Positions 930 through 52,548 of a stretch of DNA of 64,000 bases are shown piece by piece (position 1 is the stretch's first letter; each line of letters begins with the position of its first letter). The stretch is from Watersipora subatra (Eukaryota > Bryozoa > Gymnolaemata > Cheilostomatida > Watersiporidae). The DNA lies in assembly GCF_963576615.1 (NCBI RefSeq), contig NC_088716.1, positions 57,505,681 to 57,569,680 on the forward strand, read 5' to 3'. Below the pieces are notes generated by a model. It saw only the letters and a program-made list of their open reading frames with translations. It made no database searches and was not told the origin of the DNA. A program made the translations under genes and the position numbers.

Positions 930-2564
930 CTGCATTATAAGTGCTAATTACAACTAGCTCTACTGCTGCCGCTATTAGTTATTCAGCTGCCACTAAAAAT
1001 GCTGCTTGAGAAAACATAAGACTTGGCAAACACTTTTGTAAGATCCTGCAAAACTAGAGACACAATTTTTTTCATACAACTCTAAAGGAGCATAAAAAAA
1101 CTACTAATATTGCCATTTTCAAATATCGTAAAAGTTGGCTTTCTGAAAAAAAACTCATGTAATTATTAATAATTTTGATAGTCTTTGCTAAAATATTTTT
1201 ACCGTAGCTGCTCATGATTAGTTGAAATTACCTAATCAAAAACAATCAACCAATGAAGCAGGCTGATATTAACTACTTAATTAAAAGATTGGAATGAAAT
1301 AAAAATCTTTTACCTGCAAACATCTCTAACAATATGTTACCTTCAATGTTTACATGTTATCATCTCTAACTTGTAAACCATTGTACTTCAACTGAGCAAG
1401 TTGATTTTTTAAATAAATAAAATGGCACTTATTGATGGGCTTCATCTGCAGTGGATATTTTTTGTGCACCACCCAAGGTTATTGTTGTAATAATAGCATA
1501 CTCTGCTATAGCTTTTATTCATTTTTCTATAACTTGGCCGGATTAGTTGAAGGGGTGGTGTTAATGCGCAATTCAAATAAATTATTCTTTTGCTGGAATA
1601 ACCTTTATGAAGCAATTTCACAAATAGTTAACAAGTTTGACTATTAACTCTAAGATCAGCATGGAGATATTTTTAAAATGTTTAATATTTCAATCTTATG
1701 GTAAAGATTTGAGCTAATTTTTGAATTTTTTGTGAGCTTTTTGTTAATAAATATTATATAAGGAATTTGACTTTCAGAACTTTCAATATATCTCTGCTCA
1801 CCTTTCTGGATTCTGGTAACATTTCTTCACAAAGAAAATAATTCCAATTATTACGAAGAAGCCGACTGCGATGGAAATGTATATAACATCTGTAACAGAG
1901 TTTCACATGTCAACATCAAGGTATGTCATGAATGAGTTTTTGGTAATTGAAGCAATATTATGCTACAAACACCACTTTTCTGAAAGAAATTTAGCCTCTT
2001 TATATGCCTAGCGGTCTTTTAGCGGTGTTTATAGCTGTTTATAGCTGATGTTGCTGATAAAACTATAAATATAATTGTCTAATCACAGCTGTGTAAAATG
2101 AACTTATGGTATACTGCGTGTAATGTTAACTTGACAAAACATGCAGTGAAACTAATATATAAACCAAAAACATAAACTACTATGAATCAACTAGTTTAGA
2201 GAAGAAGACTCAATAAATTTGAGGGGCTGAAGGAAGTAATAGCTGTACTTACAGGTTACTGCACTGCCTAAAACAGAAAAAAAATGACATTGTACACATA
2301 GTTTTAATTCAGTAACAAAGGTTTGCCTGCTTATATATAGTATATATATAAGTATATATAGTATATGTAGTTTACACTGTAAAGTAAAGTGCTCAATCAT
2401 CGAGTCAATTAGAGCTGTGTATGAAGTTTATTAAAACTACAGGTTAAAATCATTACTTTTAATAATTTCATGCAATCGCGTTGCAATCTTCAGGTAGTAT
2501 GACTAAAATGTATAATGTACAAGCTATAAAATTACTTTATAAAGCTGAGGGCTCAATACTATTG

Positions 2565-6442: not shown

Positions 6443-6476
<34 letters not shown>

Positions 6477-16430: not shown

Positions 16431-16490
16431 ATATAATATAATTATATATATAATTATTATTTATGCAAGATAATAGTTAAAACTACTTAC

Positions 16491-16697
16491 AATCATCATC
16501 AGCGATTTTAGCATTTTTTCCTACACTTTCCATTGCTTCCAGGAAATTGTCAATATTAGCCTGATATGTCCCTTCATTTGCGAGGTCATGGAACAAGGTG
16601 TTACCTAGCAAAAAAGCGAGCCATCCGGATGGTCTGTACTTTTTCTGCATTCTTACAGGCACTAAAGTCTTTTTGATCCTGTCAGCATACTCAATCT
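16491..16697 (-). CDS. Gene C exon 9: TIR domain part 3
   Basis: Phase 1 to 1, acceptor ccttgttag, donor GTAAGT. It encodes (E)IEYADRIKKTLVPVRMQK, RPSGWLAFLLGNTLFHDL and ANIDNFLEAMESVGKN. GWLAFLLGN is the box 3 equivalent of this TIR subfamily. Since a donor follows DDD, a short tail exon must exist downstream. The acceptor is the first unit of a tandem array that copies it several times into the intron. Confidence 0.75.
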
Positions 16698-31851: not shown

Positions 31852-31931
31852 TTAAATTACAGTATTGGGATGCTGGATTTGTGGCATTGCCTCTGAGTTT
31901 ATGGGTTGCAGTGTAGGAAGGGGCGGTGGCT
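31852..31931 (-). CDS. Gene B exon 12: Pro-rich C-terminal tail with stop
   Basis: Acceptor ctattttag, phase 1 in. It encodes EPPPLPTLQPINSEAMPQIQ, HPNTVI, then TAA at 31854-31852. Its start (EPPP; tttag|AGCCACC) resembles the gene A linker exon at 63355, suggesting both derive from one ancestral exon. Confidence 0.65.
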
Positions 31932-34900
31932 CTAAAATAGAAACAGAGGATTATAGGCAAAAAAGCAAAAGGTACACAAATGTGCAATTGTTTTGAATTA
32001 CTGGGCAATAGAGAGCTCATTGCTAACAATAGTAGCTTGTAAAATGACAATCAACTGATATTCAATTTTTTAAAGTGAACTGACAACTCCCAGCATCATA
32101 ATGTTGCTACATTTTAGATATAAGAACCAAATTATAAAACTAATTAACTTAATAAGTTCCTCGAACTCGTACACATCAGCTTTAGGCTGTATACATGACA
32201 TATTGATAAATAGCTAATCATAGAGTTCCCCAGCAACTCACAAGACCTGCAGCTAGATAGAAGGGAGCTCAGGCTACATGATATATTGATAAATAGCATT
32301 TCATAGAGTTCCTCAGCAACTCACAAGACCTGCAGCTAAATAGAAGGGGGCTCAGACTACATTATATATTGATAATTAGCAATTCATAGAGTTCCTCAGC
32401 AACTCACAAGGTTCGCAGCTAAATAGAAGGGAGCTAAGGCTAAATGTTATATTTATAAATAACCATTCATAGAGTTACTCAGCAGCTTGCAACAACTGTA
32501 ACTAAAAATTATAGTTCTTGGAGCTAAGGATTTATAAAGAGACACCAAACATGTTCTTTGTTCATAGCTAGGCCATAATCAACTTGTTACAATGACTCTG
32601 TGCTCAAGTCATACATCTATGATACCGAAAACTATATGTTTATAATAAATGCATATTAGAATAGAGAATGAAAGACAAAAACAACTTTCCTCCTAGTTGT
32701 GGGTGGTTTTGATATAGTTACTATAAACCCATGAAGCAGACTTTATTTTACCAAATACCTTCTTCTTCTTCTGGTGGCATTTTGGCATCTTTTCCGATGA
32801 GCGAAATGGTGTGTAAGAAATTTGCAAACTGCTCGTCGAATGTCTCTTTTTTGCTCAAGTCGTACCAGACTCTGGTACCAAGAAGAAATCCCAGCCAGTC
32901 TTCTCCTGGTCTAAATCCACGCTCTATTCGTATCGGTATAAGTGCTTTTTTGCACTTATCGGCGAACTGAATCTCTGCAAATTCAGCAGCGAATGCTTTA
33001 TAAATTTATTACAGTTGCAACCATTTCAATACACATGACTATAACTCTTTGAAAGAATTATTCAGACTACCTGACAACTTGCTCATCTTATCTTTTCTAA
33101 TGATTTTGATACAGTTAGTTAATTACAGCCCTCGGGTGGTTTTGATAAAGATGAAAACATCATCAACTATATAAATCTCAAAGATACGAAGTCATTTTTG
33201 ATTTATCTCACCACAAAAAATAGCCGATGGCTTCTAAAAACACGCATTCCTATCATTCAGACAGTTTGTTGTACTCTGCTAAAGTTTTTGTAGAATTATG
33301 CCAATGAGTTCAAATCCTGTACAATGGAATCCTTTTTCCCAACCTTCAACATTCAGACGGATGGACGAACGGACAGACATGGCTTTTATTATAGTAAAAA
33401 TGATACTTTTGGTCAGCAATTAAAAATGGAACTTTAAAATTAGCAATTGAAGCGATGAAACAAGGAACACGTCAGTTTGTTGTCTTGGCAAGCAAAAGCC
33501 ACTGAGAAAAGAAGGATTTATTCGTGCTTACTTTAAAACTAATTTCAGCTGATCTTTTATTTCAGTAGTTAGTGATTAAAATTAGCAGAAGCACAAAATG
33601 ACTATCTGACCAAATAAAATGAAAGTTGAAAATTACTTGAATTACATTTGTGTTTAATCTACTTATCTTAAAAAATAAAACAAAATGTTTGCAAATATAT
33701 TACTACATCTGCATTAAATAACATTTAGTCCAAATCAACAAATTGATATCCAATCAACATAGACATGCCATTATTAAACTTCACTATCACCAAGAGTCGA
33801 TTTAAAGTTTTATGATGCTAGTACTGATTGTCATATAAAGGTATATTGTTCTGATGCTTATATGAATAAAACGAGACTGTTCCTTGACCTCTTACCTAAC
33901 ACGTTTAGCTAGTTGACTGTAACATAAAATATATCATAATATTTTAATATGTTTTCTGTATGAAACAATTCTAATAGACTGAAAAAAATATAAAAATTCT
34001 AAAAGGCATGATAGAAGAAAACTAGAATGTTTAGAACACACAAAATAAATTGTAATTAATAACATCAATTTACAGATTTTTACCTACCTTTCTGGCAAGC
34101 CGGACTGTTCTGGTAACTTTTGGTTAAAACTGGAACAACAAGCACAGAGCTCCTGATGGTCTTTGGTATATCTACTCCAACTAAATTCAAAGGATAAAAT
34201 GTTATTGCCAATCAAGTGAAGTAGTGTTTTGATTGGTTGACAGAAAGCTACTATATGTGAGAGCAACTAGTTTGACAGGAATTGAGTGCTGGACATTAAT
34301 TTAATTTGGTTAAGTATTCTAATTTCTACTATTATAACTACAGATATTTGATTCAAATTAACTAACAACATGATTAAGAATATAACATGAGCTTTTAAAT
34401 ATAATTTTTGAAAGTTGAAAGATTTATTTGAAAGTTTCTTAGTAAAAATAAGTTTACTTTTAAAAGCCAGACTTTGTACTTTTACTTTATTTATAAATAT
34501 TTATAGCATTTATGAGCCATTGGCTTTAGTTGAAATTCAATTAAAAAGATTAATTAATGAAACATTTTAACATCGATTAAACCATTCAATAGAAAAATTA
34601 GTGACGAAAGATAGATTATAAACACTGCAAACAACAGTTTTTAAAAAAAATATTTATAAAAATTCAAACAGATTTGGAATAACAAAAATCATTATTTGAA
34701 AAATCTCACTTTGTAAGAATTAAAAAATTGGAGTAAATTAAAAAGCGATTACTGCAGCTACTAAAGTTTTTGCATTTTGATTATTGATAGCCTTTATAAT
34801 TTACTAGTAAGCAGGCAGTCTTGCAAACCATGAAATACCATCATCTGTAATAGCTAAGTGCACAATTATTCTTAGATGTAACAGGATGGTTGAGTGGCAC

Positions 34901-37900
34901 AGATAGTGGTGTGCTTAGTTAGAAATATGAATGTCTGGGTTCAATCCTTGTACGGTGCAATATTTTTTCTCTAAGACTCTTAGTGTGGCTTTGGACAGAT
35001 GTACACCGCTCTTATTATAGTAAAGATCAGAACTGTTGATTGTAACACAGATATAGATATTGTTCACATATAAACCTCTTATTTAAACGTTAACACAAAC
35101 TTAGAGCAACTTTATCAATAATAATCTACTAAATCTTTTTTCTGCTACAAATATCAATCTTTCTAATGTAAAATTTTACCCTAGACTAAAAAATGGTATG
35201 TGAGCTTTGATTAGAGCAACCTAAACTGTACATCGAACAAGGTGGTAAAGCTATTACAGGACCACAGATTATTACACTGCACCAAAACAGCTGCAGCTAT
35301 TCTCCAGTTGTGAACTGCAAGGTTGTGTACTAAACTCATTTTTAACTTATTGGTCAACTCTGCCACCTCACCACGTATCCGTTCTGCCACCTCACCACTT
35401 ATGTGTTCTGCCACCTCACCACTTATGTGTTCTGCCACCTCATCACTTATGTGTTCTGCCACCTCACCACTTATGTGTTCTTCAACCTCACCACTTATGT
35501 GTTCTGCCACCTCACCACTTATGTGTTCTGCCACCTCACCACTTATGTGTTCTGCCACCTCACCACTTATGTGTTTTGCCACCTCACCATTTATGTGTTC
35601 TGCTGGAAACTAAAAGGTTACTGACCAGAATTTTAAAGTTTCTATAAAGTCAAAACTGCTATAGAAGCTGCAATATCTTTCTAGTGTATCTGGTAGATTA
35701 GTGAAAGCTGGTGATGACTACTAGGCACTAGTAATACAGTGTAGCAGTAAATTTCATGCACTCAGCGGTGACATGCATTGAGAGAGATATAAACACTTAT
35801 AAAGTATGGATATTTATAGATTATAGATTAGATATACATTATGTATACCTATACATAAAAAATGAGTTTGCTTCATAATATAGTTTACTGTTTTGAGTGA
35901 TGTTTTGGCAAAATGTTTAACCAAGTTAACAATAGCTGATCACTACTTAGCATAAAGGTGTGTTATCTGTATTGACATAATAGGAGTTAGCTGCTCTATT
36001 GGGAGCAGTTTACTAAATGTCTATGAGCTGCAATGAAAGCTTGAATGTTGATTGAATCCTTGTGATTGACTAAACTTGAACAACGCAGTATTATAATAGA
36101 AAGATTTGCATATTACTTACATAAAACTAAAAATTAGGTTTAATTATCCAAATAAACAGTTGTATGTTTCCTTATTTTAATAACTCAATTAGGTCAAGTG
36201 CTTCAAGGCCTTCACCTTGTTAGCGGCACACGAATAATTTTGTTATTTTACAGCAGTTAGCGATACACAAAAACTTGGTAAAATACTTGATTAGAAGTTA
36301 AAAGATAATATATATATATTAAAATATTAATATGGTGCGGTGTATGATATGATAAAAATAACTTACCCTTTCCAGCTTCCTTAGGTGAATCCAAGCTTGG
36401 CCAAGATCTGTATCCTGCTTTGAACAGTTTTTCTTGCACGAACTTAACATGGGTGTATTCATTTAGCTGGTAACTAAACACTATTTTGGGTCCATCTAAA
36501 ATAGATCATCACAAAATTATCATTGGATTCTAAAAAGTTGATTTTAGAGTAACCCAAATACTCTAAAACAGGTCGTCATCGAGTTCACTCACCTAACAAT
36601 GACATTACTGGAATGTTCCATAACGTTGCTCATACACTAATGTTCCTAGCACACGCTTTTATTATTTTCTACAAGCGTTATCTGGTGATCATTATCTCAC
36701 GACCAAACACGAGCGAAGCGATTGTTTGGGAGCTTTATGATAAATGCATATGTGCACACAACTCCTAAAAATTATCTGTCAACAGCCATAACCAGACCCT
36801 TGTACCGAAATCCCATTAAAAAATTTAACCATTTTTGTGTAGAGTCGTTTAAGTATAATAATGATACAAAAAACATATAAACCTATTTAAATATGTTACC
36901 AAGTCTTTGAAAAGTTGAGACAATATCTTAAAACTTACCCATCTCATCGGATAATATATAACTAGACAAATCAATTTGGCCTGAAATCGCTAATAAAACC
37001 TGACAAGCCTTTTTAATCAAAATTAAGACCGGCAAACAAAACGCCAATAAAGCCATGCGAGAAATAGTAGAACTATTACGCCGTGTGCATTTCACGAAAA
37101 AAACGTGCACATTTCACCAATCTATGGCATTGTCCAACTGCCGAAGGTTTCTGTAATAAACATAAAAGTACTGAAAAGTAATCATTTGTTTTTTGCCGAG
37201 TCTACCGGACTCTGACATTTTGGACACTTATAATGAGTAGGCCTACTCTGTTATTCCAACTGATGTCTAAAGCAGTGAAAGTAAAGGAAATGACGATGAT
37301 ATTTTTCTAACGATTCTTATAAGATTATTACAATATTTAATTGTGAGAATAACTATTCAATTTTAAAAGATTATTAGAAGATTTAGTGTGCAATGGTGTG
37401 CAATATGTTACTGTTATTATTTTTCTAAAGATTTTGTTGATGATGCTCCGACTGTGCCCAATATCGTGGTACTGCCAAGCCAATCTGTTTAGATTTTTTA
37501 AATTAAGCATAATTTTTTAGATATAAATACAGAAATATAGATACATATCACAACTTCTTGATATTGGTTGCTATGACCAATGGTATACAGCCCTCCAGCC
37601 TGTGTATATTACACAGCAGCTTGCCATTTTACTTCTAATATTGCATTTCTCCTATTGCAGGGGAGAGATATAAACATATAATCTTTTCCTTTCATTATTG
37701 CTGTTTGTTGTACATAATAACACCCAGTACATCACAGCTACCATTGCAGCTACCATTGCAGTTATCCTATTACACTGCAGTGCCATTTGACTGTTAATAT
37801 TGCATTTCTCAACCAGCAGTACTCTTTCTTTTTCCATTATCATTTTGGTCATAGGCTCTATGACAGGAGAATCTCTAGTTTACAAAATGTATTGTAAAAA

Positions 37901-40900
37901 TATTATCAAAACGTTTTATAGAATGTTACAGGAATAAACATTGCTAATGTTATCACAATGATGTTAGACAACATTGTGATTGATTGCTTAGCAATGTTCT
38001 GGCAAAGTTACCTTACAATGTCTGAGCATAAATGTCTTTATAAGATTGCCATGCAATGTAACTAGATCGTTATGGTGCAACATCACTGTTACTTTCAAAT
38101 GTGGCAATGTTGCAGGAAAGTTACTTTGGAATGTTGGAATGTAAACATTCATATTACATTGACTTCCAATGTAGAGGAAGCATTAAGATGGGCCATAATT
38201 TTCACCTTTAACTGAATGCCCCAGTAATGTTACATAAAAGTTATTTTTTATAATGCTCAATAAAAGTCAATGTTATGTAAATGTAAACACACATATAATA
38301 TTGGCTTGCGATGTAAAGGGAAAATTATGGTGTAAAATCCTTTGTACTCTCAAATGTCTGTTATAATGTTCTGACAATGTTTTCCTTAAAATACTCTTTA
38401 ATACCATTTTTATTATAATATTTTACTCTAGCTAGCTCTTAGCTGGCCCTTTTAAAACTTTTCATGATGACTTGATAAATACACTGGCAACAAATCTTTA
38501 AGAAATAAGTTAACTTTAGTTTTACTACTTTGGCCAAAAACGCATCATCTATTTTTTTTCTCAAATTGTTGCCCTTTGATAATGAAAGGTTATTTAAAAT
38601 TAGATAAAATGAAGCAAATTAAAATTTTATTTATTTCTTATTTTATTACAAATATAGAAAGGAGCAAAATAATGTAATAACTTTAAGGCAACAACTCCGA
38701 AGGAATCTTTGTGGAATATTTCGCGGCATTCTCCCAATATTGTGGAAATTGTGTGTTAGATCATTTTTTTTGCTGAACGTTTTAGCATACATGTTTCCCA
38801 CAACATAGGAACGTTAAAAAAGTGTCTACACATTATTTGGTGACAACGTTGCAATTAAACGTTTCCGAGATTTTTCGGAAAATTCTTGGAATGTTCTAAA
38901 AATATAAAATTTTTAGTTGGGTACCTGTGTACTCCAAGCAGTAAATCGCAAATTTGTCTATGCCTATTTAAAAGACATGTGAGGTATAATTGTTTAAGAA
39001 ACATACATGTAAGTGTTTGAGAAAAACAATAACTGTGTATAACCTACCAGTTCTTTTCTTTTTAGGTGGCTTTGGCTTGGGGGCGGGCTTAGGAGCTGAG
39101 TTTGGGGCAGCTGCAAATATTGACAGAATCTTCAAAGCATTTTTGATAACATCTGCTATTCATAGAAATATTTGCTACAAAAATAATTATCTCAAAAACA
39201 GCTAAAAGAGTAACTGTTAAGCAGTACATGCTGTAGCCATGCGAGCTACAAAAATGACTGTTATTGTAACAACTGCTACCAAAATTGCTGTTTTAACAGA
39301 ATTGGCCATAGCAATCTTACCATAATTTTACCTGCTACTGTAATGTTTTTTGCAATTACATTTAAATGACAAAAATTTGTATCCTTTAAGTTGCAGCAAA
39401 CCTGGTGATACCTGAGGTTTCTTTTATTTTCAATTTGCAGGCAGGTATTTCAGAGACTGATTCTCGGGAACAAGACAGATTTATAAGAGCAAATATTTTA
39501 GTGAGCTGGATGAAGATCACTAGCATGGTGGAAGCGTGGTGGAAGTCACTGGTGGAAGCATATGCATGCGAAATTTGAATGAAGTTGGCCAAAAAAGTAG
39601 AAAGGCATTATGAAGAGATTATGAAGACTAATGGACACACATACACACATACATACACAATGACAAGGTGAGTTTTATTAACATATAAATGATTGTCATA
39701 GTAGCCATCAGCCTCAACTTCATTTGAAAATCACCTTTCCAATGATTAGAATACTGCTTTTAAATATACTTTATAAGTCCATATAATAGTATTATAAAAA
39801 CAAATATTTTATTCATGGATTTGCAATACAGTGGCGATGTATAGGCCAATAGCATATTTGCATCGCCGTTTAAAATACAGTCATTCATTTGGTTTGAAAC
39901 ACCTTTTCTCTGTTAAAATCTTTTTTCTTATCATTTTCTTGAATTTTTTTAAAGATTTTGATCTTCTTGATTAAAGAACTAAAAACCTTAAAATTTGTAA
40001 TTAATAAATTTTGATATTATACAGACCTCGTGGTGGTGGCGAAGGTTTGACTTTTTGACACCATCCATTCTTGACTGCATGGCTAAAAAAACAACAAAGC
40101 GATGACTTCTTTGTACTAAACGTATGAAAAAAATATTTTAAAAAGTCATTCTTCGAACTTTTTTCCAAGAATGTCACAGCTTCAATAGCTTTAGTGCATT
40201 ATTATTTTCAATTAATTCCAGTTTGAGGAAAGGTTTGTCAATTATGAGAAACATTTGCCTCAAAGACTGAAAGCTAATTCAACAGCTGTGATATCTTCTC
40301 TAATCTGAATGTTATGCTCTTTTTACAAAGCAACTATAGGTGCTGCCTGACAGCGCTTGCATCTGAAAAAAAAGAACTTTTTTCATGTCAAACATCTCTA
40401 GCATAAAGGTGTACTGTAATTATGCATTAAATACTTATCTTTCAAGCAGCGAAACAAAATATCACTAATATATAATTAATGAAATAAACTGTAGGTTTAA
40501 TATGTTCTAAAATGCTTACAGAGTATTTTAAAACTGCTACAAGTTTAACAATTCATGTTTTATTATCACATAATTAAAATAACAGATTTTTTGATTGTAG
40601 TATGATACAAAGTTGGTAGTTATAAAAAGCAGTATGTGTGAAGTTGCCTGCTTTTTTACTGCAACATAGTCCGACAAATGAAATATTGTTGCACACATAA
40701 ACATCATTTTTTGGGTTTTTAAATTTTTAACATGATCTTTGATGATGAACTGAGCACGCTCTTTTCTGAATGGCCTTATTGTTTGATTTCTGATTTTTTT
40801 GCTTGCTATGAGCTGAAGTGCACGCACTCGAAACTAGCTTAATTTAAAAGTAAAAGAAGGATTACATATAATTGCTAAACTACTTTGTGAAATGTATTTA

Positions 40901-43900
40901 TAAGCAAATGTAGCTGGCTCTGAAGCAAATACTTAGACTATAGCAAACAGCATCTCTTCAGCCCTAAATTATGCTAAACATCAACACTATAGCCCTAAGT
41001 TATGCTAAACATCAACACTGTAACCCTCAGTTATGCTAAACGTCAACACTATAGCCCTAAGTTATGCTGAACATCAACGCTGTAACCCTCAATTATGCTA
41101 AACATCAACACTGTAGCCCTAAGTTATGCTAAACACCAACACTGTAACCCTCAGTTATGCTAAACATCAACACTGTAGCCCTAAGTTATGCTGAACATCA
41201 ACACTGTAACCCTCAGTTATGCTAAACATCAACACTGTAGCCCTAAGTTATGCTAAACACCAACACTGTAACCCTCAGTTATGCTAAACATCAACACTGT
41301 AGCCCTAAGTTACGCTGAACATCAACACTGTAACCCTCAGTTATGCTAAACATCAACACTGTAGCCCTATAGCAAAGTCAAAGACTAAATCACTCAGTTA
41401 TGCTATAGCGAGCATGAAAACTATAGCCTCATTTTTGCTATAGTAAACGTCAGAGTTATAGCAGGGAGTTAGGCTATAACAAACATCAACACTATTATAG
41501 CCCTTAGAATAGCACAACAGCTACACTCTGATGAAAACTATCCTTGATCGAATGGCTATGATGTTGGATTCATAATGAGATATTTGAGGCCAACTTTAAA
41601 TAGCCATGAGATACTTACTCTTTTCCTATGAGGTAGAAGAAGGGTAGTAATATCAATCTACAATACATAACACACAATCTAAAATATATGGCAAATAATC
41701 TAAAATAGATGGCACACAACCATAAATAGATAGCACACAGTCTATAAATTGGCGGACCGACAAGCGAGTCTGTTGGAAGCTGAAAAACATATCAACTTGT
41801 TTAGAATACCATCTAAAAGAGATTCATTGTTTTTCTCTTTTAGATAAGTTGGAATGCAAAGACAAAGGTTTTTACTGTTTGACTTTAGTCTTCGTAAATC
41901 TAACTACAGTCAAACATGGATAACTCGAACTTCACGGGACCGAGCAAAAGTGTTCGAATTATCAGAGCGTTCAAGTTATCAGAGCACTGTCACAAGTCCA
42001 TATATTTACTTATTTATTAGTAGATACATGTACATATACAAACTATAATATAAATCAAAAGCACAAATGGCTTGTTTCAAATTAAATGCTTCTAATGTAA
42101 AGTTTAAAACGTTTTCATGAAAAAGTATAGAGATTTTTCTATCACTTGAGATTGGTTTGTTGTTTGAGGTGATGTTATTGCCAGGACTTTTTCAGATTGA
42201 CATTGGCAAAACTTGATCGTTGTTGAAATGCTCAAAAGAAAAGACATTTTTTTCTTTTGGGGTTTTACCCACGATCAATTTTGCCGTTTTTTCTTGAAGT
42301 TTATGCAGATTACCTTACTTTACCTGGGATTCGTTAAGAGCAACACTCCGAGACAGTTCAATTAGAAGTTTTACGAGGTTTTACGGTACATTCTATATCA
42401 CTCACGCTTTTTTAATAGATACTTATTGAATGTACACACGTATTCTGTGTTTAGGTCAAACGATGAATAGTTTTTTGTAGCTCAGACAACGTATACGTTT
42501 AATTACAACATTTTTTAAGACGTTTTAAACATTCAACATTCCGACGTTGATTCAACACGGAATCAACGTCGGAAAACTATTCATCACGGGCTAGCCGGGT
42601 CACGCACTCAAGGATTTTCGCCGCGCACATACAAAACAACATGCGATTTTTGTTTTGTATGTGCGTGGCGAATATCCTTGTGTGCGTGACCCGGCTAGCC
42701 CGTGCTATTCATCGTATCGCAGTATAAATCAATTTTCACCAAACTTTTAGAAAAGTCGTTGACAAAAATATTTTGCCGATGGTGGTAATAACGACGCTTA
42801 TGAATTACGAAAAGATGAAGTTTACCTCTATGGCTTTGAATAAAGTGATTTTCTAAAGCGATAACAACCGTTTCGGTAGCCGTTGGGCAAAAAAACAGTT
42901 CGAATTAACAGTGTTGAGTTCGAGTTATCTATAGCAATTTATCATTACGTGGGAACGGACCAAAGGAAATGTTCGAATTAACCATGTGTTCGAGCTATCT
43001 GTGGACGAGTTATCCATGTTTGACTGTAGTTTAACTGTAAAAGCGAAACTTACAAAAAGAATAGGTAATAGTAGTCACTGCTGCTATTTCCTGTCTCTAC
43101 AGAAGTAGCGTTAGTCGTGGTTTCAATCAGACCTGCAATAAATAAACTTGTATGACACGCGCACTTTACCATCGGATTACATACAAAGACTCAGTACATG
43201 ATAAAAACAGTGTTATGCTTTCAGTAACTGTCACTGAATAAGTTAGGAAAAGTTGTTTTCCTTCAAATTATCTATCATCCATTCATCAATTGTGCACTGC
43301 TGGTATGATGCCTGTCAAACATCTGTTTATCAATTGTGCACTGCTGGTATGGTGCCTGTCAAACATCTGTTCATCAATTGTGCACTGCTGGTATGGTGCC
43401 TGTCAAACATCTGTTTATCAATTGTGCACTGCTGGTATGGTGCCTGTGAAACATCTGTTCATCAATTGTGCACTGCCGGTATGGTGCCTGTCAAACATCT
43501 GTTTATCAATTGTGCACTGCTGGTATGGTGCCTGTGAAACATCTGTTCATCAATTGTGCACTGCCGGTATGGTGCCTGTCAAACATCTGTTTATCACTTG
43601 TGCACTGCTGGTATGGTGCCTGTGAAACATCTGTTCATCAATTGTGCACTGCTGGTATGGTGCCTGTCAAACATCTGTTTATCAATTGTGCTCTGCTGGT
43701 ATGGTGCATATCTAGCACCTGTTTATTCCCATACTCTTACTTGCTTCTTTCCTGACTGTGATCTTATCACCACTCATCCTTACCATTATGTCTTCCAGCA
43801 TCATATTAATATCAATAGCATACCAAGAGCCAACTTAAAATTGACTCTTAGCTGTCTATGCTTTTATAGTTAGAAAAGTGGTGTTATCTACAGGTAGTAT

Positions 43901-46900
43901 AGCCTTCACTTCTCCATCCAAAGATACTCACAGGTAATAAAAGTACCCGACAATACCTACATGTTTGTATCAATACATGCAGCACCAGAACAGACCTGGA
44001 GTTAAGGACGTAGTCCAATCTAAACTGAAACCTCTATCAGTTCCTGCTCCATCAGAAATGAACCGCACAGATACCAAATTGGATTGTCCTATGATATACA
44101 ACGGAATGGAATTGTCTGTTCCACAAAGCTTAATGAGAATATTTCCTCTGTCAATTATCTACAAGTTTGACAAAGAAGGAGATGATAATTTTAGAAACTC
44201 AAAATTAAATGGCTTTGCCTAACTTTAATGTAAAACCTATTAAAAACTTATGTACACACATGCTTATAATAAGCAACAATAATTTAGCTAAGCACACAAA
44301 AGTATACAGAAGATTTCTAACTAAAATTAACGACAATCTCATGATGAAAAATCTGAAAGGGCTAGCTCAAAGATGGGCAAACTTTTCAATGTGAGAACCA
44401 CATTAGGAAAATCTACAGTTTTAGCTGCATCTAAAAAAGCACAGTTTGCAAAAAATTTTAAAATTATTAAATGTCAAACAGCTATTTATAGAGTTTCCTT
44501 TAAAAAAACGATTAGTTTTTATTAATTATCTTTAAAGTGTACAGTTCAACTGAAATACACTTATTTCACAAAATCTTATATAGACTGTATAATATAGAAA
44601 ACCAGGTAACTGCGTAATTGTTGAGTAATAGAAATAATAAATGTCAATGAAATGATGTAGCTGACCACTGTCATTCACCAGTATGTTAAAATCAGGTGTA
44701 AAAAAGTACAAGCAACTTGGCAGTTGCTTGTGCTAACTTGTAAGACTGACTAAAGATTTGAGTCAGTAAGAAATGATTTGTTCTTTGACTTCCTAATTTT
44801 CATTACAGAGAAAGTCTGCTCATAAATTTATGTTGACGCAAACAGCACAAACGTCTTTCTTGCAACTTTTTTCAGCTGTTGAAACTTTTCACAATGCACA
44901 AGAGACATAAAACTCAACCGGTGGTTTACTTTCAAACATATACTTTAAAGAGTTATCTGCATGCACCTCAATTAATTCCTTTTGTAATTTCGCAGCAGTT
45001 GTTTCAATATTACAGGCAAAAGATGAGCAGAGCAAATTATATTGCCTTTCCATTACCTTAAAATAAACAAATCTTCTGATAATATTTGTTGTAAATCCAT
45101 CAACTGACAACTGTATTCGTCTGACAGCGTTGGTGTGATATTTTGGGTTTCAAAATGAATGAAATAAACCAAGTTTTGCTCACTTAGCTGTTTGGCAAAA
45201 AGTTTAAGTTTCAGTTGAAAGCATTTTATCTTCCTGTGCAAATCATGAGCAAATACACCTTCACTTTCTAGCTTTATGTAGAGCTCATTCAGCTTTGATA
45301 TTATGTTCGAAGCAAATAAAAAATCACATCCTCATTCTTCACACTCTATTTTCTTTGGAAGTCACAAGAAATGCCTTTTATCACCAAACAATGATAGTCT
45401 CTGCTTTGAGGTATCAACTCTCTTAAGCACTCTTTCCATGCTTAGTCAGTTGACATTTGTGTGGTAAAGTACATCAGCAAATTATCCTCCATATCATCCA
45501 AACATTTTTGAATTGCCCGTGATTCAATCTCCATGCTCTTATTAAATTCACTGCAGTTATCACTGAATCCACAATAATTTATGTTTGAATTCCAAAAAAG
45601 ACTTACAAAGGCTTTCTTGATGAATGATGCAACAAAAGGAGAGAGAGCAATGCACAGTAGAAATCTTTCTTTGATTTTATCATTCATTAACTTCACTAAG
45701 CCAGAATGTTAACCAATCAGAGAAAGAGCACCATCTGTTGTATTACTTGCAAGTGTATCCATGCCTAATCCTGACCTAGTTATACTACTTATGATGTATC
45801 CATGCCTAATCCTGACCTAGTTATACTACTTATGATGTATTCATGCCTAATCCTGACCTAGTTATACTACTTATGATGTATTCATGCCTAATCCTGACCT
45901 AGTTATAGTATTCATGACATTCTCAAACAAATCTTAACCAGTAGTAGTGTCCTTCAGAGATTTCTTGGATAGCAATTCTTTAGTAATCTTAAAGCTTTCA
46001 TCAATTCCTCTGATATATATCATTAATTGGACAGTGATCAGTACTCTCATCCACAGCAATGAAAAGCTACTCAAAATGAATCCTCCATGTCAACAATTGT
46101 TCTTTGATAATGTCTGCAATTGTGCCAATGCATCGAACAATAGTTCTTTTTGACTGTGAAATGGCTTCAAGTTTAGATTGGCTTCAAGACAGACGACGCT
46201 GACAATTTTTACCATGCAGTCTTTGATGAATTCTATGTGTGTAAACAGTTTTTTTTTGCAATTTCACAAAGTCGATAGAAAATTCGCACTGGTAACACTT
46301 TTTTGTAAAGATGAGAATTTCTCAAACACACTCAATAGTTGATTAAAACTCTTTGCCAGATCAAATGCGTTCTCAGTTTTAGACTCAATAGACATTTTCC
46401 AAAGTTAGCATGGTTGGTTTAAAATTATATTCCTTAAACATGGCGACTGCGGCGTGGCAAATCAAACATACGGCTTTATCTTTAACATCGGTAAAGAAAT
46501 ACTTTTCCACCCATCCTGTGTTAAAAATATGGCATTCATCTTTAGTTTCCTGCTTCCTAGAAGCCTTCATTATAGGTGATTTTGTAATAATTTAAGCTAA
46601 GCTGAAATATTAAATAATTTATAAATAATTTGTCTTTGAGAGGCAGTTACAGTCAAGTGCTGTAACTGTTGCACGAAATAAAACATTGCAGCTTCCGGTT
46701 CAGTGGCAATGCGTTTTTGATCCACATACTTTGAGTGCGATAAGTGTGTAGAAGCCTAGAAAAGATTCTAAGCAAAAATTTTTATGATGAAATGTGTATG
46801 TACTTTAGGGCCTCAGATTAGGCATTGGCAGGCCGCATGTGGCCCGCAGGCCGCAGTTTTCCAACCCCTTGGCTAGCTTATAAAAATTATGTAGGCCATA

Positions 46901-49900
46901 CTTTGCGAGTTCCTACATACATGTGTAGGCTATTCTTTGCTAGAAAAACACATCTGTATTTAAAAAAAGGGCATACTGATGAATATTTGTATAGCATTCA
47001 CAACAGACTTGAAAGTGTAACTTACTTCCAAAGCATCATCTTCACAGTCAAATGAGTCATCGATTGCAAGGTAAGTTATGTTTATTGCCGGGTACGTGTT
47101 CTCTGTTAGTTGAATGTACCAGCTACAGTCCAAATTGTCTGCATAGAATGTGGTAGGGTAGCCTGGTGAAGAAATAGTGCCACTGCTATTGAAGTTAAAA
47201 GCTGTGCCTCCACATTCTACAACAAAATATCAACAATAATTTTAGGTAGATACCTATTAGAAGCCAAGTCTTTAAGCTAAGCTATTAGAAGTCCCAAGGA
47301 GGTTGAACAACGATGACTCCCATGCAAACTGTTTGCAAACAGTCAGCAATCGAAAACATTCTAGCATCTTAGAACCTGCTTTTTTACAGGAATATACTAA
47401 AGTCATAAAATGTCACATCCGAAATAGATGTAGGTATAGATAGATATATATAGGCCTATCTATATAGATTAATACTGTTGTATCTTCTTCTTCAAGTTGG
47501 AATATACCTCAAAACTAATACAAGATTTGCCTCTCTTGGTCAGCTTGTGCCTTGGGAGCTGATGAAACGTTAGCGATGACATATTTTAATATGCAGACTA
47601 CAAAATCTTACAACTATGTGTCTTCTGCAAAAAAAAACTAAAAACTTGGGCTGTTTTTATATGTTTGGCAATGCTTAACATATAAAAGCAGCTCAAGTTT
47701 TTATATGTTAAGCATTGCTAAACATATAAAAACTTGAGCTGTTTTTATATGTTAAAGCATTGCAAAAAATACAAACTTTTCATGTGCTGTTTAGTACTGT
47801 CTAAATAAGTTTGAAAAAGTCAAAAAATAAACTTTTGGAAGATTAAATTTTGCTTACTTTTAAGCTGTTGCAATAGTATTAATAATCATTAATAACAAAT
47901 AGGTTTTAAAAAATAAATTATTGATACTATAATAATAGTTAATACTATTTTCTGTAGCAAATTTTGGGCCATGTTAAATAAAGTTCTTCAAAAGATTTCT
48001 GTTGCCTAAAAAAGTATATTCTTTAAGCTAGAGTCAAGTGGACAGCAGGCTATATATTTGTAACAATAGACTCTGTATTTGTAGCCATCATGAGCAACTG
48101 CTAAGGTAAAATCATGCCAAACAGTTATAAATTGCTTTGCAAAGAAACTACCCTTGACGGAAGAGAAAGTCTCTGCCTGTTACAATTTTCGCAAATTTTT
48201 AAACTTTTCCACAATCAAGCTTCCTTTAAAACCTTGAGTAAGGTTTGCAGACTTTATTAAGTATGTAACATTTAGCTTTAGCGTCTTACAAAGTGTAAAA
48301 AGACTGAGAATTGCTTTCTCACCCCCTACTCTCGTAATTGTATAAACAAAATGTCCACTTTTATTTGAGATGTATAGGGTGGGCAACAGAGACGTCGACG
48401 CCTGTCATTCAGGTAGTCTCATCAAGCAAATTGAGACCCACTTATCAAACATCTGAATTGTGCAGTTGTTAGGATTATGTTTAAAATGACGGCTCATGTA
48501 GGTTTACAGAACAATGAGGTAATACGATATAAAGTGTTGCCTACATTCTTATTGATAGCTAAAGCTTGAGTGGACAATTTTCAGTGTGTTACTAATTGTA
48601 TTTGCTAAAAAGCAATTTAGCAGACAGTCTTTTACTAAAGTGACATTTACAGTACACACAACTACAATAGAATCATAAGCATATTATTGAAATACTTAGC
48701 ATGAGATCTTCATGATTGTTGCTCTAATTATCGCTTTTCTGATTTTGACTTCCGGCAACGACAAGCTAGAATGCTTTTAGTTTAATTTAATTGGCAAGAT
48801 TTTACATAACTAAGTTTTAGACTTAGTCCTTATCTCAAGCTTCGAACCGGCTTTGCAAAGACTCAGCTTTGTAACGCAAATTACTACTAACACAAAAATA
48901 TTAAAGCATAATATTAAAATTAGAAAACCTACTGTCAAAACTCGTAAAACCTTTTTTACAAGTTAGTTTATTAGACGACCAGCGTGGTAGTCTAAACGAT
49001 GTAATAATTAATATTATTTTTAGAATATTTAAAAACATATCTGATTTCTAATTTATTACGTAAAGATTACATTTAGATTACCAAAATGTGCTACTCAGGT
49101 TGCTATCAAACCATAATAGAAGATGGAATTAACTTTAAAGCAAATATGAAGTCATAAATCGCATAGAATTAAATGTCGCATCTGACCCCAATCACCAGAG
49201 TGCACTAAGTATGCCGACACTGACCAGGAGAGTAGGCTCAGTAATGACAACAGATATACACGCAGGACTATGAAAACATCAAATCAATATCTCTGTGAGA
49301 AACAAACTACTACCAACATCTACTAGGTGTGAACTAATGACACACAGCATACATGTATACTGTGTCCTATTGCATGGATATGTGTGCTATATCATAATTC
49401 TACAACCTCATCGCACACTGTATACAGTGTGTATGTACTATACCATATATATTCTAGCTCATCACGCACATCGTATGGTCTTAGGTGTATGGTGTATCAC
49501 ATATATACTAACTCATAACACACAGCGTATAATATTTGAAGTTTACTGTATCATATATATCCTAACTCATCACATGCAGTGTATATGATATTAGATGTGT
49601 ACTATATCATATATGTTCTTACTCCTCACACAAAGTGTATGATATTAGATGTGTACTGTATCATATATGTTCTTACTTCTGACACAAAGTGTATGATGTT
49701 AGATATGTACTATATCATATATGTTCTTACTCCTCACACAAAGTGTATGATATTAGATGTGTACTATATCATATATGTTCTTACTTCTGACACAAAGTGT
49801 ATGATGTTAGATATGTACTATATCATATATGTTCTTACTCCTCACACAAAGTGTATGATATTAGATGTGTAATATATCATATATGTTCTAGCTCATCACA

Positions 49901-52548
49901 CAAAGTGTATGATGTTAGATATGTACTATATCATATATGTTCTCACTCCTCACATGAAGTGTATGATATTAAATGTGTACTATATCATATATGTTCTAGC
50001 TCATCACATGAAGTGTATGATATTAGATGTGTACTATATCATATATGTTCTCACTCCTCACATGAAGTGTATGATATTAAATGTGTACTATATCATATAT
50101 GTTCTAGCTCATCACATGAAGTGTATGATATGAGGTGTGTACTGTATCATATATAATAATGGAAACTGTTTTAAGTGCATTTAATTATTCTTCAACTTGT
50201 GATAACTTACGCTCGACAAATAGCAAGAATAGCCAACTTCAATATGGCCAAACATGCGTCAGTCTGTGCGCCTATGCTATGTGTTTGATTCAATCTTTTT
50301 TTAGCTAAAATCACCAACTACTGTTAATAACAGAATAATATGTGAACTAGTAGAATAGGCTAAATTTAGAGCTTTTTCAAGCAGGTCAAACATGTATGTA
50401 TATGTACATGAATGTACATATACATGTATATGTACATGCAGTGCTATGACAGTGTATATGTACATACAAGTACATATAGATGTATGTATACCTACATGTA
50501 TATGTACATGTATATTTACATATATATTTACATGTATATGTACATACATGTACATATACATGTATATGTACATACATGTACATATACATATATATGTACA
50601 TAGATGTACATATATCATGTATATATATGTACAGTATCATCAAAAGAGCCTGTGAGTCATGCACTCAGTTACATGCTGCCAACTGAAAAATATATGTTCT
50701 TGTTTTCAACTATAGATACGCCAAAATGTGGTTGCATTTTGGTGTATCTATAGTGTAGCCAAAATGTGGTTACATTTTGACAGTTTTAAACACTAACTAG
50801 CACTGCAAGCATTATGAAAAGCAATTGCCTACCTGAAGCTGTAGATTCTGGAATGATTTGAGAGCTTATCTACAACAGAGGAAAATGCAATTTGAAAATG
50901 TATAACAAATGACTGTCTCTTAGAGCTGCTCTTATACTATTTTTGTTCCGTTAGTCTCAAGCTACAACTAGGCTGACTCTGCACCTGATAGTAGGATATA
51001 AGCTAGTAATAAATACTTCCATACAAACTTTTTAAGATTGGCAGGACGTTTGCTAGTTGATGAATAGTCCACCATTTTCTTGGTGCTGGTTTGTAGCTAC
51101 CCATATAGTAATATAGTTATTAGCTGTGAAAGTACACAAAAAATAGTTATTCTCCACGATAGCTAATTATCTAAATTGTAGCACGTTTTTATTAAATACA
51201 ACGCTCTGTGACTAGTCACCTGCCCATCGCTACAGATCCCTACTTAATTAATCTGTCGATGACCAAAGTTTCAGTGTAAGTCATATTCTCACTACAAGGT
51301 TTCAGTGTAAGTCATATTCTCACTACAAGGTTTCAGTGTAACTCATATTCTCACTACAAGGTTTCAGTGTAAGTCATATTCTCACTACAAGGTTTCAGTG
51401 TAAGTCATATTCTCACTACAAGGTTTCAGTGTAAGTCATATTCTCACTACAAGGTTTCAGTGTAAGTCATATTCTCACTACAAGGTTTCAGTGTAAGTCA
51501 TATTCTCACTACAAGGTTTCAGTGTAACTCATATTCTCACTACAAAGTTTCAGTGTAACTCATATTCTCACTACAAGGTTTTAGTGTAACTCATATTCTC
51601 ACTACAAGGTTTCAGTGTAAGTCATATTCTCACTACAAGGTTTCAGTGTAAGTCATGTTCTCACTACAAGGTTTCAGTGTAAGTCATATTCTCACTACAA
51701 GGTTTCAGTGTAACTCATATTCTCACTACAAGGTTTCAGTGTAACTCATATTCTCACTACAAGGTTTCAGTGACACATGAGTTGAGTCTCATCCCACAGT
51801 AATTTTACAAAAATGTTTAATTCAGGTTTAAAAGTTCATTTCAAAGATAAAGTTTTAGCAGTGCGCAAGGTCAATTAGAGGTTAAATCAGCAGGCCCCAT
51901 GTAGTGACTTCCCATTTATGAGCATTATTAAATTACATTACCATTGGTTGACCAACTTCGGATGTTCGATCTGCAGCTAAGCTTTACCTAGAAACTTTTT
52001 TTATACAAGAGCTAAGCTAGCTGCATCCTTAATCTTATTTTCAAGATCATCTGACATCTCTTAAACTCACACCTTTTCTACAAATTTACTTCCACTAATA
52101 CTCATTTTTACCTCTAAGTAAAGTTTTACTTATCTGCTCAACTTCTTAGCAATGATAACAAACAAATAAGCTATGAAATATATTAGTGAGTAGTGTATCC
52201 TCCTTTGAGAAAGAACTGGTTTTGAGCTTGAACATTCAAAGGATATTTTGAGTCAATTGATTCGCGACTTTGAGTTGCAGTTGCCATTGATAGAAGCAAA
52301 GGTCAAAGTTTAATTATTTCCGACTTGCAATTTTAGAGCGATATCCATTTCTACTGATATCTTTCAGCATGTCAACATTTCCTAAACACTGACTATACAC
52401 TTAGTATAACAACTTCAAAATCAACCCATGTGTTACCTAGTTGTTGATAATGTACGCTGAGTTGGTAACACCTTAAAGTTTTATTCCTTACCTCTATCAA
52501 CACGAATATCCTTAAAAATCGGTGAAAAACTTTATAAGTTATGAGCAT
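31852..52548 (-). CDS. Gene B: CUB-transmembrane-TIR receptor (gene model)
   Basis: Exons 52492-52548 (candidate), 50833-50869, 47029-47216, 43996-44158, 43054-43132, 41619-41657, 40027-40082, 39048-39110, 36367-36495, 34088-34180, 32759-32974 and 31852-31931 join without a frame break, ending in TAA. The order is signal peptide (candidate), one complete CUB domain with four Cys (ECGG, LDCSW, FDCED, KLCG), Ser/Thr stalk, TM helix (YYYLFFLLILLPFFYLI), Pro/Lys-rich cytosolic linker, TIR domain and a 26-residue Pro-rich tail. CUB domains bind proteins or glycans outside the cell; TIR domains signal inside. I know of no standard animal receptor with exactly CUB-TM-TIR. Introns hold an hAT element and a Tigger-like MITE. 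Weak points are the first exon and two GTCTGT donors. Confidence 0.72.
32165..32480. repeat. About 80-bp tandem repeat, four copies
   Basis: Diverged copies of catagagttcctcagcaactcacaagacctgcagct with spacer, in the gene B intron between the tail exon and TIR part 3. Confidence 0.8.
32759..32974 (-). CDS. Gene B exon 11: TIR domain part 3
   Basis: Acceptor atttgcag, donor GTATTT, phase 1 to 1. It encodes (E)IQFADKCKKALIPIRIE, GEDWLGFLLGTRVWYDL, EQFANFLHTISLIGKD and PPEEE. DWLGFLLGT is the box 3 equivalent. Confidence 0.76.
33285..33420 (+). mobile_element. tRNA-derived SINE family 2, copy 1 (degraded)
   Basis: B-box-like gagttcaaatcctgtaca, then tttttcccaacc, acggacagacatggct and tttattatagtaaaaatgat. 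The tail matches copy 2 at 34885-35060. The A-box region is worn. Confidence 0.5.
34088..34180 (-). CDS. Gene B exon 10: TIR domain part 2
   Basis: Phase 1 to 1. The acceptor is tttag before 34180, or ggag before 34174; both keep the frame. The donor is GTAGGT. It encodes VGVDIPKTIRSSVLVVPVLT, KSYQNSPACQK. The last G joins the next exon as Glu. Confidence 0.7.
34885..35045 (+). mobile_element. tRNA-derived SINE family 2, copy 2
   Basis: The tRNA-like head ggttgagtggcacagatagt ... gggttcaatccttgtacgg is followed by tttggacagatgtac and cttattatagtaaagatcag, the same tail as copy 1. It lies in gene B intron 10 on the opposite strand to the gene. Confidence 0.55.
35345..35605. repeat. 24-bp minisatellite
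   Basis: About 11 copies of ctcaccacttatgtgttctgccac. The unit is a multiple of three, so it gives open octapeptide frames (minus: AEHISGEV; plus: SATSPLMC). It lies inside gene B intron 9 and is not counted as coding. Confidence 0.9.
36367..36495 (-). CDS. Gene B exon 9: TIR domain part 1
   Basis: Acceptor ctattttag, donor GTAAGT, phase 1 to 1. It encodes DGPKIVFSYQLNEYTHVKF, VQEKLFKAGYRSWPSLDSP, KEAGK. KIVFSYQ is box 1 and GYRSWPSLDSP the BB region. It diverges most from A and C in the BB loop (Pro-Ser-Leu-Asp). Confidence 0.75.
36496..39047. other. Gene B intron between linker 2 and TIR part 1
   Basis: AT-rich. From about 37900 to 38900 it is full of drifting aatgtta / gcaatgttac phrases, ending in aatgttctaaaaatataaaatttt, perhaps an old non-autonomous transposon. 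No exon recognised. Confidence 0.35.
39048..39110 (-). CDS. Gene B exon 8: Pro/Lys-rich linker 2
   Basis: Acceptor atttgcag, donor GTAGGT, phase 1 to 1. It encodes APNSAPKPAPKPKPPKKKRT, a flexible basic linker that may bind acidic lipids or SH3 domains (inference). Confidence 0.6.
39111..40026. other. Gene B intron between linkers
   Basis: AT-rich; no recognisable gene or repeat apart from a short cacacatacacacatacata run near 39635. Confidence 0.35.
40027..40082 (-). CDS. Gene B exon 7: cytosolic linker 1
   Basis: Acceptor tttttttag, donor GTCTGT, phase 2 to 1. It encodes HAVKNGWCQKVKPSPPPR. Basic and proline-rich, as expected just inside the membrane. The donor has the same unusual GTCTGT as exon 4. 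Confidence 0.55.
40960..41372. repeat. 31-bp tandem repeat with alternating units
   Basis: About 13 copies of ttatgctaaacatcaacactgta, alternating between gtagccctaag and gtaaccctcag, so the true period is 62 bp. It lies in the gene B intron beside the TM exon. Confidence 0.9.
41619..41657 (-). CDS. Gene B exon 6: transmembrane helix core
   Basis: 39 nt, acceptor attgtag, donor GTAAGT, phase 2 to 2. It encodes LLILLPFFYLIGK. Joined to YYYLFF it makes a helix of about 18 hydrophobic residues followed by Lys. Confidence 0.66.
41907..43026. mobile_element. Tigger/pogo-like non-autonomous DNA transposon (MITE)
   Basis: Terminal inverted repeats cagtcaaacatggataactcg (left) and its complement ending 43026, flanked by TA (41905-41906 and 43027-43028). 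Subterminal tgttcgaattatcagag / gttcgaattaac phrases repeat on both sides. This TIR style (CAGTC...TAACTCGAA) is typical of Tigger/pogo elements, which duplicate TA. No transposase ORF. It fills most of the gene B intron between stalk and TM exons and contains other nested repeats. Confidence 0.75.
42585..42704. repeat. Nested 55-bp inverted repeat inside the MITE
   Basis: Arms 42585-42639 and 42650-42704 (cacgggctagccgggtcacg ... ) pair with only a few mismatches around a 10-nt loop. A second hairpin (ccgacgttgatt / aatcaacgtcgg) lies at 42541-42572. The arms are GC-rich against an AT-rich background. Confidence 0.85.
43054..43132 (-). CDS. Gene B exon 5: Ser/Thr stalk and start of TM
   Basis: Acceptor ttattgcag, donor GTAAGT, phase 1 to 2. 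It encodes GLIETTTNATSVETGNSSSD, then YYYLFF. The Thr/Ser-rich stalk has N-glycosylation motifs (NAT, NSS) and leads straight into the hydrophobic helix. Confidence 0.68.
43265..43712. repeat. 44-bp tandem repeat
   Basis: About ten copies of caattgtgcactgctggtat... spaced by 44 bp. Because 44 is not a multiple of three and the unit has no stop in any plus frame, three overlapping ORFs appear; they are not genes. It lies in the gene B intron between CUB and stalk exons. Confidence 0.9.
43996..44158 (-). CDS. Gene B exon 4: CUB domain, second half
   Basis: Acceptor aacttgtag, donor GTCTGT, phase 0 to 1. It encodes IIDRGNILIKLCGTDNSIPL, YIIGQSNLVSVRFISDGAGT, DRGFSLDWTTSLTP. KLCGT (fourth Cys), the V-x-V-x-F-x-SD strand and RGF-x-L-x-W complete the fold. 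The two halves, separated by a 2.9-kb intron that houses an hAT element, give a CUB of normal length. Confidence 0.76.
44890..46570 (-). pseudogene. Broken hAT transposase (ZBED-related)
   Basis: The minus strand starts with KQETKDECHIFNTGWVEKYF and DVKDKAVCLICHAAVAMFKE (BED-type zinc finger start, 46570-46385). Later fragments are MEIESRAIQKCLDDMEDN (near 45500) and FQLKLKLFAKQLSEQN ... YFIHFETQN ... DLQQILSEDL (45241-45060). These match the layout of hAT transposases related to ZBED/GTF2IRD2-type domesticated genes. Several stops and frameshifts separate the pieces, and an internal 41-bp tandem repeat interrupts the frame. Inactive. Confidence 0.65.
45745..45905. repeat. 41-bp tandem repeat in the hAT transposase
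   Basis: Four copies of gatgtatccatgcctaatcc...tactactta at 41-bp spacing. An expansion after insertion breaks the transposase frame. Confidence 0.85.
47029..47216 (-). CDS. Gene B exon 3: CUB domain, first half
   Basis: Acceptor ttttgttgtag, donor GTAAGT, phase 1 to 0. It encodes (E)CGGTAFNFNSSGTISSPGYP, FYADNLDCSWYIQL and SFDCEDDALE. It has three of the four CUB Cys, the G-x-I-x-SPGYP signature, Cys-x-Trp and the acidic C-x-DD calcium-site region. N-glycosylation motifs NSS and NIT are present. Confidence 0.78.
47217..49430. other. Gene B intron 2, unique part
   Basis: A long inverted repeat at 47640-47765 (gagctgtttttatatgtt / aacatataaaaacttgagc types) can fold on itself. The rest is AT-rich without recognised features. 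Confidence 0.5.
49430..50155. repeat. 54-bp tandem repeat
   Basis: About 13 copies of gtgtatgatattagatgtgt...cctcacacaaa at 54-bp spacing, more degenerate at the left. The period is a multiple of three, so long overlapping ORFs arise; not genes. Confidence 0.9.
50390..50640. repeat. Palindromic (ACATGTATATGT)n simple repeat
   Basis: About 250 bp of self-complementary tacatgtatatgtacat repeats. ORFs on both strands are artefacts. Confidence 0.92.
50833..50869 (-). CDS. Gene B exon 2: N-terminal ectodomain linker
   Basis: 37 nt, acceptor ctgttgtag, donor GTAGGC, phase 0 to 1. It encodes ISSQIIPESTAS; the final G joins the CUB exon to give Glu before the first CUB Cys. Confidence 0.5.
50970..51075 (-). 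CDS. Alternative gene B first exon with strong signal-peptide-like ORF
   Basis: ATG in good context (AAAATGG). It reads MVDYSSTSKRPANLKKF, VWKYLLLAYILLSGAESA, then stop. It looks like a signal peptide. The only usable donors (G|GTGCAG, phase 1; TA|GTTGTA, phase 2) would need an internal acceptor in the next exon. It may be an alternative first exon or a coincidence. Confidence 0.25.
51285..51775. repeat. 31-bp minisatellite
   Basis: About 16 copies of aaggtttcagtgtaagtcat attctcactac, highly uniform, varying mainly between gtaagtc and gtaactc. It lies between the two alternative gene B first exons. Confidence 0.95.
52492..52548 (-). CDS. Gene B candidate exon 1: signal peptide start
   Basis: ATG at 52548-52546, 19 codons MLITYKVFHRFLRIFVLIE, then a strong donor GTAAGG in phase 0, as required by the next exon. 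The basic start and hydrophobic FLRIFVLI suit a signal peptide but the core is short. The alternative at 50970-51075 has a better signal sequence but poorer splice phase. Confidence 0.4.

Follow-up and report, generated by a model that had tools for sequence, protein, structure and literature searches.

A recurrent CUB-transmembrane-TIR architecture encoded in a tandem gene array of the bryozoan Watersipora subatra

CUB modules are otherwise found in complement proteases and in endocytic or guidance receptors. Neuropilin and cubilin are membrane proteins with a CUB ectodomain, a layout that they share with the gene described here (gene B), and we know of no TIR domain in these or similar membrane CUB proteins. 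Toll-like receptors (TLRs) resemble gene B in being single-pass proteins with a C-terminal TIR domain, but their ectodomain consists of LRRs and their TIR domain belongs to PF01582, whereas in gene B and its neighbours C and E the Pfam search gave no LRR or Ig family at E 0.1 and PF01582 stayed below its cut-off. IL-1R-type and Hydra TRR receptors are likewise transmembrane (TM) receptors with an intracellular TIR domain; their ectodomain is Ig-like according to the accessible text of PMC6321704, while that of gene B is a CUB domain.

A preliminary description of this locus, made from the DNA alone, had stated that known animal TIR receptors use LRR or Ig ectodomains. This was too narrow, as a ctenophore TIR2 protein carries extracellular FN3 repeats (PMC11797021, available portion), and a TIR domain with a non-LRR, non-Ig extracellular module is therefore known in kind. 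Compared by description, that protein and gene B both combine TIR_2 with such a module, FN3 there and CUB here. The further suggestion that the architecture is possibly undescribed may hold for the exact combination only: open-access literature yielded no paper for the term CUB-TIR, and the accessible text of PMC6321704, PMC8609888, PMC12902671, PMC5094078, PMC11797021 and PMC8260672 describes no CUB-TIR protein. Among bryozoans, a TLR survey reports none in the Bugula neritina transcriptome and six in Membranipora membranacea (PMC8609888, in the portion available), and this patchiness suggests that alternative TIR receptors could matter for bryozoan microbe sensing.

The window, a stretch of 64,000 nucleotides, corresponds to C9:57505681-57569680 of Watersipora subatra, a cheilostome bryozoan with a published assembly of 783.70 Mb (PMC12902671, available text); the genome searched here comprised 783.7 Mb in 239 contigs. 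The region analysed spans 264 kb, i.e. the window plus 70 kb to its left and 130 kb to its right. Gene B was assembled from the following exons (window coordinates; P0003 is its NCBI model):

52548-52437, minus strand: rival first exon, with the start at 52548 chosen in the preliminary description
50985..51075, minus strand: possible first coding exon (uncertain), MVDYSSTSKRPANLKKFVWKYLLLAYILLS, signal-peptide-like, phase-1 donor gtgcag
47026..47216, minus strand: CUB exon 1 (Cys1-3), phase 1>0; PF00431 at 6.5e-10 in a single frame
43996..44158, minus strand: CUB exon 2 (Cys4, LCG), phase 0>1; the phase-0 join completes the C-terminal half
43054..43132, minus strand: Ser/Thr stalk and first TM half (ends YYYLFF), phase 1>2; in-phase join
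41619..41657, minus strand: second TM half, 39 bases, LILLPFFYLIGK, phase 2>2; present in P0003
40327..40362, minus strand: candidate cytoplasmic exon, perhaps optional (CKRCQAAPIVA), phase 2>2; absent from P0003
40027..40082, minus strand: cytoplasmic linker exon, phase 2>1; present in P0003
39048..39110, minus strand: proline/lysine-rich linker exon, AAPNSAPKPAPKPKPPKKKRT, phase 1>1; present in P0003
36367..36495, minus strand: TIR exon 1, phase 1>1; profile match and P0003
34088..34180, minus strand: TIR exon 2, phase 1>1; profile match and P0003
32759..32974, minus strand: TIR exon 3 with the conserved Glu in KEIQFADK, phase 1>1; profile match and P0003
31852..31931, minus strand: last coding exon, stop at 31854-31852; P0003

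From both candidate starts, at 52548 and at ATG 51075, the reading frame extends to a phase-1 donor, with scores of 6.5 and 5.4, respectively, and all introns of the model start with GT, end with AG and have matching phases. When spliced with the uncertain first exon, gene B gives 399 amino acids with matches to CUB (PF00431; 1.5e-16, 61.1 bits versus a cut-off of 21.4, positions 1-109 of 110) and to TIR_2 (PF13676; 5.8e-13, 49.8 bits versus a cut-off of 28, positions 2-119 of 122). These phases and matches bear out the early reading of a four-Cys CUB domain joined in phase through a Ser/Thr stalk and a TM helix to a TIR domain. The CUB exon first placed at 47029-47216 is real, with its splice border at 47026 instead of 47029, and the gene end proposed at 31852 coincides exactly with the stop of the last exon. 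A hydrophobic frame at 39327-39220 had been considered as the TM segment; the exons 43132-43054 and 41657-41619 were preferred because these are in phase, are split as in genes C to F and have their second half in P0003. An earlier model of gene B with the optional exon 40362-40327, a longer exon at 39152-39048 and a stop at 32748 was corrected by P0003. The intron between the two CUB exons contains a transposon-like degenerate stretch (44892-46870, minus strand) with a BED/zinc-finger-like frame, hAT-like by eye, for which the strongest Pfam match was a weak zf-C2H2_12 (0.0038).

Across the 264 kb, three TIR-exon profiles revealed seven genes with a TIR domain, named from left to right Z and A to F and all located on the minus strand. 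With CUB-half profiles, CUB pairs were detected upstream of the gene's own TIR and TM exons in 5/7 of them (B to F), namely one CUB in B and C and two each in D, E and F, while genes A and Z gave no CUB with these profiles in the same region. The placed features of C, A and Z are as follows:

72635-72442 and 71575-71413, minus strand, beyond the window end: gene C CUB; its stalk and TM also lie beyond the window
62021..62140, minus strand: gene C TIR exon 1, in NCBI model P0002
58082..58183, minus strand: gene C TIR exon 2, profile and NCBI model P0002
56096..56305, minus strand: gene C TIR exon 3, donor read off the sequence
27527..27620, minus strand: gene A transmembrane exon, phase 1>2
16490..19291, minus strand: TIR exons of gene A, running downward from about 19291, 18397 and 16698 with approximate borders; TIR-exon profiles
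797..1887, minus strand: gene Z TM and CxxC exons, NCBI P0004; TIR exons left of the window

The exon structure recurs along with the domains. All assembled CUBs of C, E and F share the phases of B (1>0, 0>1), and downstream of them lie an exon for a stalk or juxtamembrane segment (1>2) and then a second TM exon (2>2); the assembled exons of D fit the same pattern, and gene C has the same Ser/Thr stalk/TM exon type as gene B. A TM segment is predicted between CUB and TIR in every case, with 19-residue hydropathy values of 1.70 (B), 2.75 (C), 2.04 (D), 2.83 (E), 2.44 (F) and 2.77 in P0025, a relative on another chromosome (see below). Of the eight second CUB halves, two, those of the first CUB in E and F, matched the pooled profile weakly (E 3.2 and 0.0077) and were accepted because their phases fit and the two match each other (E to F, 2.6e-8). 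As a chance control, five dinucleotide-shuffled versions of the 264 kb were searched with the two CUB-half and three TIR-exon profiles; the best E over all profiles ranged from 0.0076 to 0.85, with CUB halves reaching 0.023 at best. On the real DNA, the second CUB of gene F, which was absent from profile building, was recovered at 4.7e-13 and 1.7e-18.

Exon lengths of E and F are identical in 8/9 compared exons, the exception being TIR exon 3 (237 versus 255). Between these genes, dN/dS was 0.20 for the first CUB, 0.14 for the second CUB, 0.27 for the juxtamembrane/TM part and 0.17 for the TIR, values which are rough because dS is high (0.76 to 2.02). The low ratios show that the CUB exons evolve under coding constraint; between B and C, saturation prevented an estimate. 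In gene D a TAA lies in TIR exon 1 (82060-81880, window frame, beyond the window end), and its second CUB shows a frame break in the first exon (85610-85370, also beyond the window end) and no Cys4. Gene D looks decayed and was counted for architecture only.

Outside the array, a profile of E, F and C found P0025, an NCBI-annotated W. subatra protein of 404 amino acids with the order CUB, Ser/Thr stalk, TM and TIR (CUB 2.0e-12, TIR_2 6.8e-19, TM between them), whose exons lie in order at C10:2733709-2749601 (plus strand). Since P0025 was annotated by NCBI, the architecture does not depend on our own splicing alone. P0025 and gene B both have a CUB, Ser/Thr stalk, TM, linker and TIR_2 domain with equal exon order; P0025 differs in its intact WIDVEQM motif, its location on another chromosome and, by eye, its linker. 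Structure prediction of P0025 from 14 sequences gave TIR blocks of which most reach pLDDT 88-97 and two only 68 and 73, and a low-confidence helix at residues 158-177; no CUB model was obtained, residues 1-158 scoring under 50. A second locus at C10:765447-754033 (minus strand) contains CUB and TIR matches in the order of P0025, with no stalk or TM match in the P0025 mapping.

The CUB-TM-TIR architecture is thus real and recurrent in W. subatra: domain order, exon phases, recurrence in paralogues and one annotated CUB-TM-TIR paralogue were all observed. The matching phases, the neighbouring paralogues and P0025 also uphold the original assignment of these exons to one gene. Gene B very probably belongs with its paralogues to a small family of bryozoan CUB-TM-TIR receptors of the single-pass type I form, a function that we infer from this layout. 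Such a receptor would have a secreted N-terminus, one CUB (two in D to F) and a short Ser/Thr-rich stalk (B, C), followed after one TM helix by a disordered linker rich in proline and basic residues and, at the C-terminus, by a TIR_2-type TIR domain.

By sequence, the nearest TIR domains are those of SARM1 and animal ARM-TIR proteins, with an aligned conserved Glu. The family match is TIR_2, the nearest PDB sequence is SARM1 (E 1.2e-4), and in the sequence search 15 SARM1-type sequences (E 1.2e-4 to 0.0029) ranked above the sole TLR (0.006) of the 16. Among the 24 hits of a protein-profile search, several of the nearest animal proteins combine ARM repeats with TIR_2 (P0005, P0007, P0009, P0010). 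The conserved Glu column is invariant in 12/12 aligned TIRs and aligns with the SARM1 KEI motif, whose Glu we take to be the catalytic one. SARM1 and the ARM-TIR proteins differ from the bryozoan genes in being cytosolic and in carrying ARM repeats (SARM1 also SAM); neither ARM nor SAM domains were matched by Pfam in B, C, E or P0025. In the TIR tree, A and Z are joined (99/98) and the bryozoan TIRs stand apart from four outgroup TIRs (100/100), with no supported order among B to F and P0025.

Two modes of signalling can be considered for this domain. The chances are about even that the TIR of the CUB-TIR family is an adaptor-type signalling domain with MyD88-like contacts and not an enzyme. 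The fold scores are consistent with this, since the TIR domains of Hydra TRR-2, IL-1RAcPb and MyD88 are equal or close to SARM1 and TRR-2 is a top match, and the conserved Glu position occurs in many non-enzymatic TLR TIRs. Against it stand the ranking of SARM1-type sequences above the only TLR, the assignment to TIR_2 (PF01582 did not reach its threshold in any of B, C and E), and the ARM repeats of several nearest animal proteins. A more speculative proposal, which we put forward tentatively, is that these are surface CUB receptors with an NAD+-hydrolase TIR that would link ligand binding to NAD+ breakdown without LRR, Ig or MyD88, in a family that is diversifying, with zero to two CUBs reshuffled within one array. 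The conserved Glu offers a simple test of whether an animal receptor TIR is an enzyme.

The NCBI models P0003 (gene B), P0002 (gene C) and P0001 (gene E) lack a CUB, which raises the question of which product gene B makes. P0003 has 229 amino acids; it reads the CUB1 exon out of frame, joins it directly to the second TM exon and continues into the TIR. Its MMLWK start equals the last 14 bases of the CUB1 exon, the sole source with a GT donor in the 264 kb. P0003 thereby connects the CUB1 exon with the transcription unit of the TIR, and it also means that CUB2 and the stalk are left out of one annotated transcript or more. Accordingly, the main product of gene B might be this CUB-less, membrane-anchored TIR protein, with CUB2 and stalk skipped or rare and the CUB form a minor isoform or relic. 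Such a reading is in keeping with the TIR of B, which is the most divergent of the family, and with paralogue Z, whose model P0004 runs from a start resembling a signal peptide through a very short, CUB-free ectodomain to a TM and a TIR. We nevertheless regard it as rather unlikely: CUB1, CUB2 and stalk of gene B are open and in phase and form a full CUB, and P0025 retains its CUB. Moreover, P0002 begins inside the second TM exon of C, and P0001 begins at the juxtamembrane exon of E and holds both TM exons where we had placed them; as these models likewise start mid-gene at internal Met codons, it seems that the first exon was generally missed in the annotation. For gene B itself, a CUB-bearing product is predicted from its exon sequences. 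If CUB forms are made, automatic gene models miss the ectodomains of three array genes.

It is highly improbable that the CUB-TM exons form one gene and the TIR exons a separate neighbour, in phase by chance: although no transcript was seen in which an array gene on C9 has its CUB joined in frame to its own TIR, and the introns are long, one of them with a transposon-like stretch, the CUB-TM-TIR order recurs on one strand in all five genes from B to F, each TM helix is split with its first half riding on the post-CUB exon and its second half on the next, the NCBI model of E has both TM exons and the TIR, and P0025 is annotated as a single protein.

The receptor reading of gene B is further supported by ectodomain queries against the genome. 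With the gene C ectodomain as query, 14 matches were listed, of which three are C itself, the next two best are the CUB exons of B (4.3e-8, 8.7e-7) and nine elsewhere are weaker (6.9e-5 to 0.041). For the gene E ectodomain, 11/11 listed matches fall in the C9 array. Both results indicate that there is no close free-standing CUB copy among the scored candidates. The PF00431 genome search returned the CUB1 exon of B (C9:57552670-57552894, 7.4e-7) among the 150 candidates scored out of 325. The corresponding TIR searches listed 19 matches for PF01582, none of which lies on C9, and 16 for PF13676, one of them on C9 in gene E; the TIR exons of gene B are missing from these lists because the score of one exon by itself is too low. 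Related TIR exons form a second cluster at C1:53370687-53461579, and no CUB was found at C1:53.37-53.46 Mb among the matches listed for PF00431, P0025 and the C and E ectodomain queries.

The search for proteins combining CUB and TIR, proposed at the outset, yielded by Pfam labels only P0025 of W. subatra among the 24 and 3 protein-profile hits listed. The first of these searches used an alignment from the earlier gene B model, and its 24 hits, several of which are CUB proteins without TIR (two of CSMD2 type), did not include P0025 despite a length in range; the E/F/C profile gave three hits including P0025. Absence from these protein searches is therefore weak evidence. A protein search with the CUB part gave nothing at E 0.001 among 2215 candidates.

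The four Cys columns are invariant in the four aligned CUBs (B, C, second of E, first of D; the second of D was left out). The CUB of B is nearest to the CUBs of cubilin (E 5e-35), PCPE-1, neuropilin (neuropilin-2, E 3.2e-15) and MASP. Three positions (Glu, Asp, Asp), an acidic triad, bind calcium in calcium-binding CUBs; in an alignment to cubilin, PCPE-1 and MASP they read E, D, D in C and D, D, D in B, and in the second CUB of both E and F the first two of these acidic residues are missing. Because all three are acidic in B and C, calcium is proposed for their CUB. The ligand of the CUB would be a protein or a glycan, bound in B and C probably with the help of calcium, and ligand-driven clustering would gather the TIR domains, which would then signal by TIR-TIR adaptor contacts or NAD+ hydrolysis. 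If the receptors work in this way, a CUB ectodomain can drive animal TIR signalling.

Several further features of the array were noted. Genes Z (797-931) and A (21579-21727) have in common an exon bearing the cysteine pair CYKC between their TM and TIR parts; the profile did not find this exon in the other array genes, and in gene B it is perhaps reduced to the CKRC of 40362-40327. Upstream of gene Z lies a non-LTR-type retrotransposon with a reverse transcriptase (3030-6518, minus strand; PF00078 1.2e-26). The gene A intron between the TM and CxxC exons contains a 47-base tandem repeat with 64 copies and 99% matches (window 23818-26823). Two other tandem repeats, of 58 bases (16693-17113) and 34 bases (61531-62006), have units that resemble the intron edge beside the TIR exons of A and C and look by eye as if splice-site flanks had been duplicated many times.
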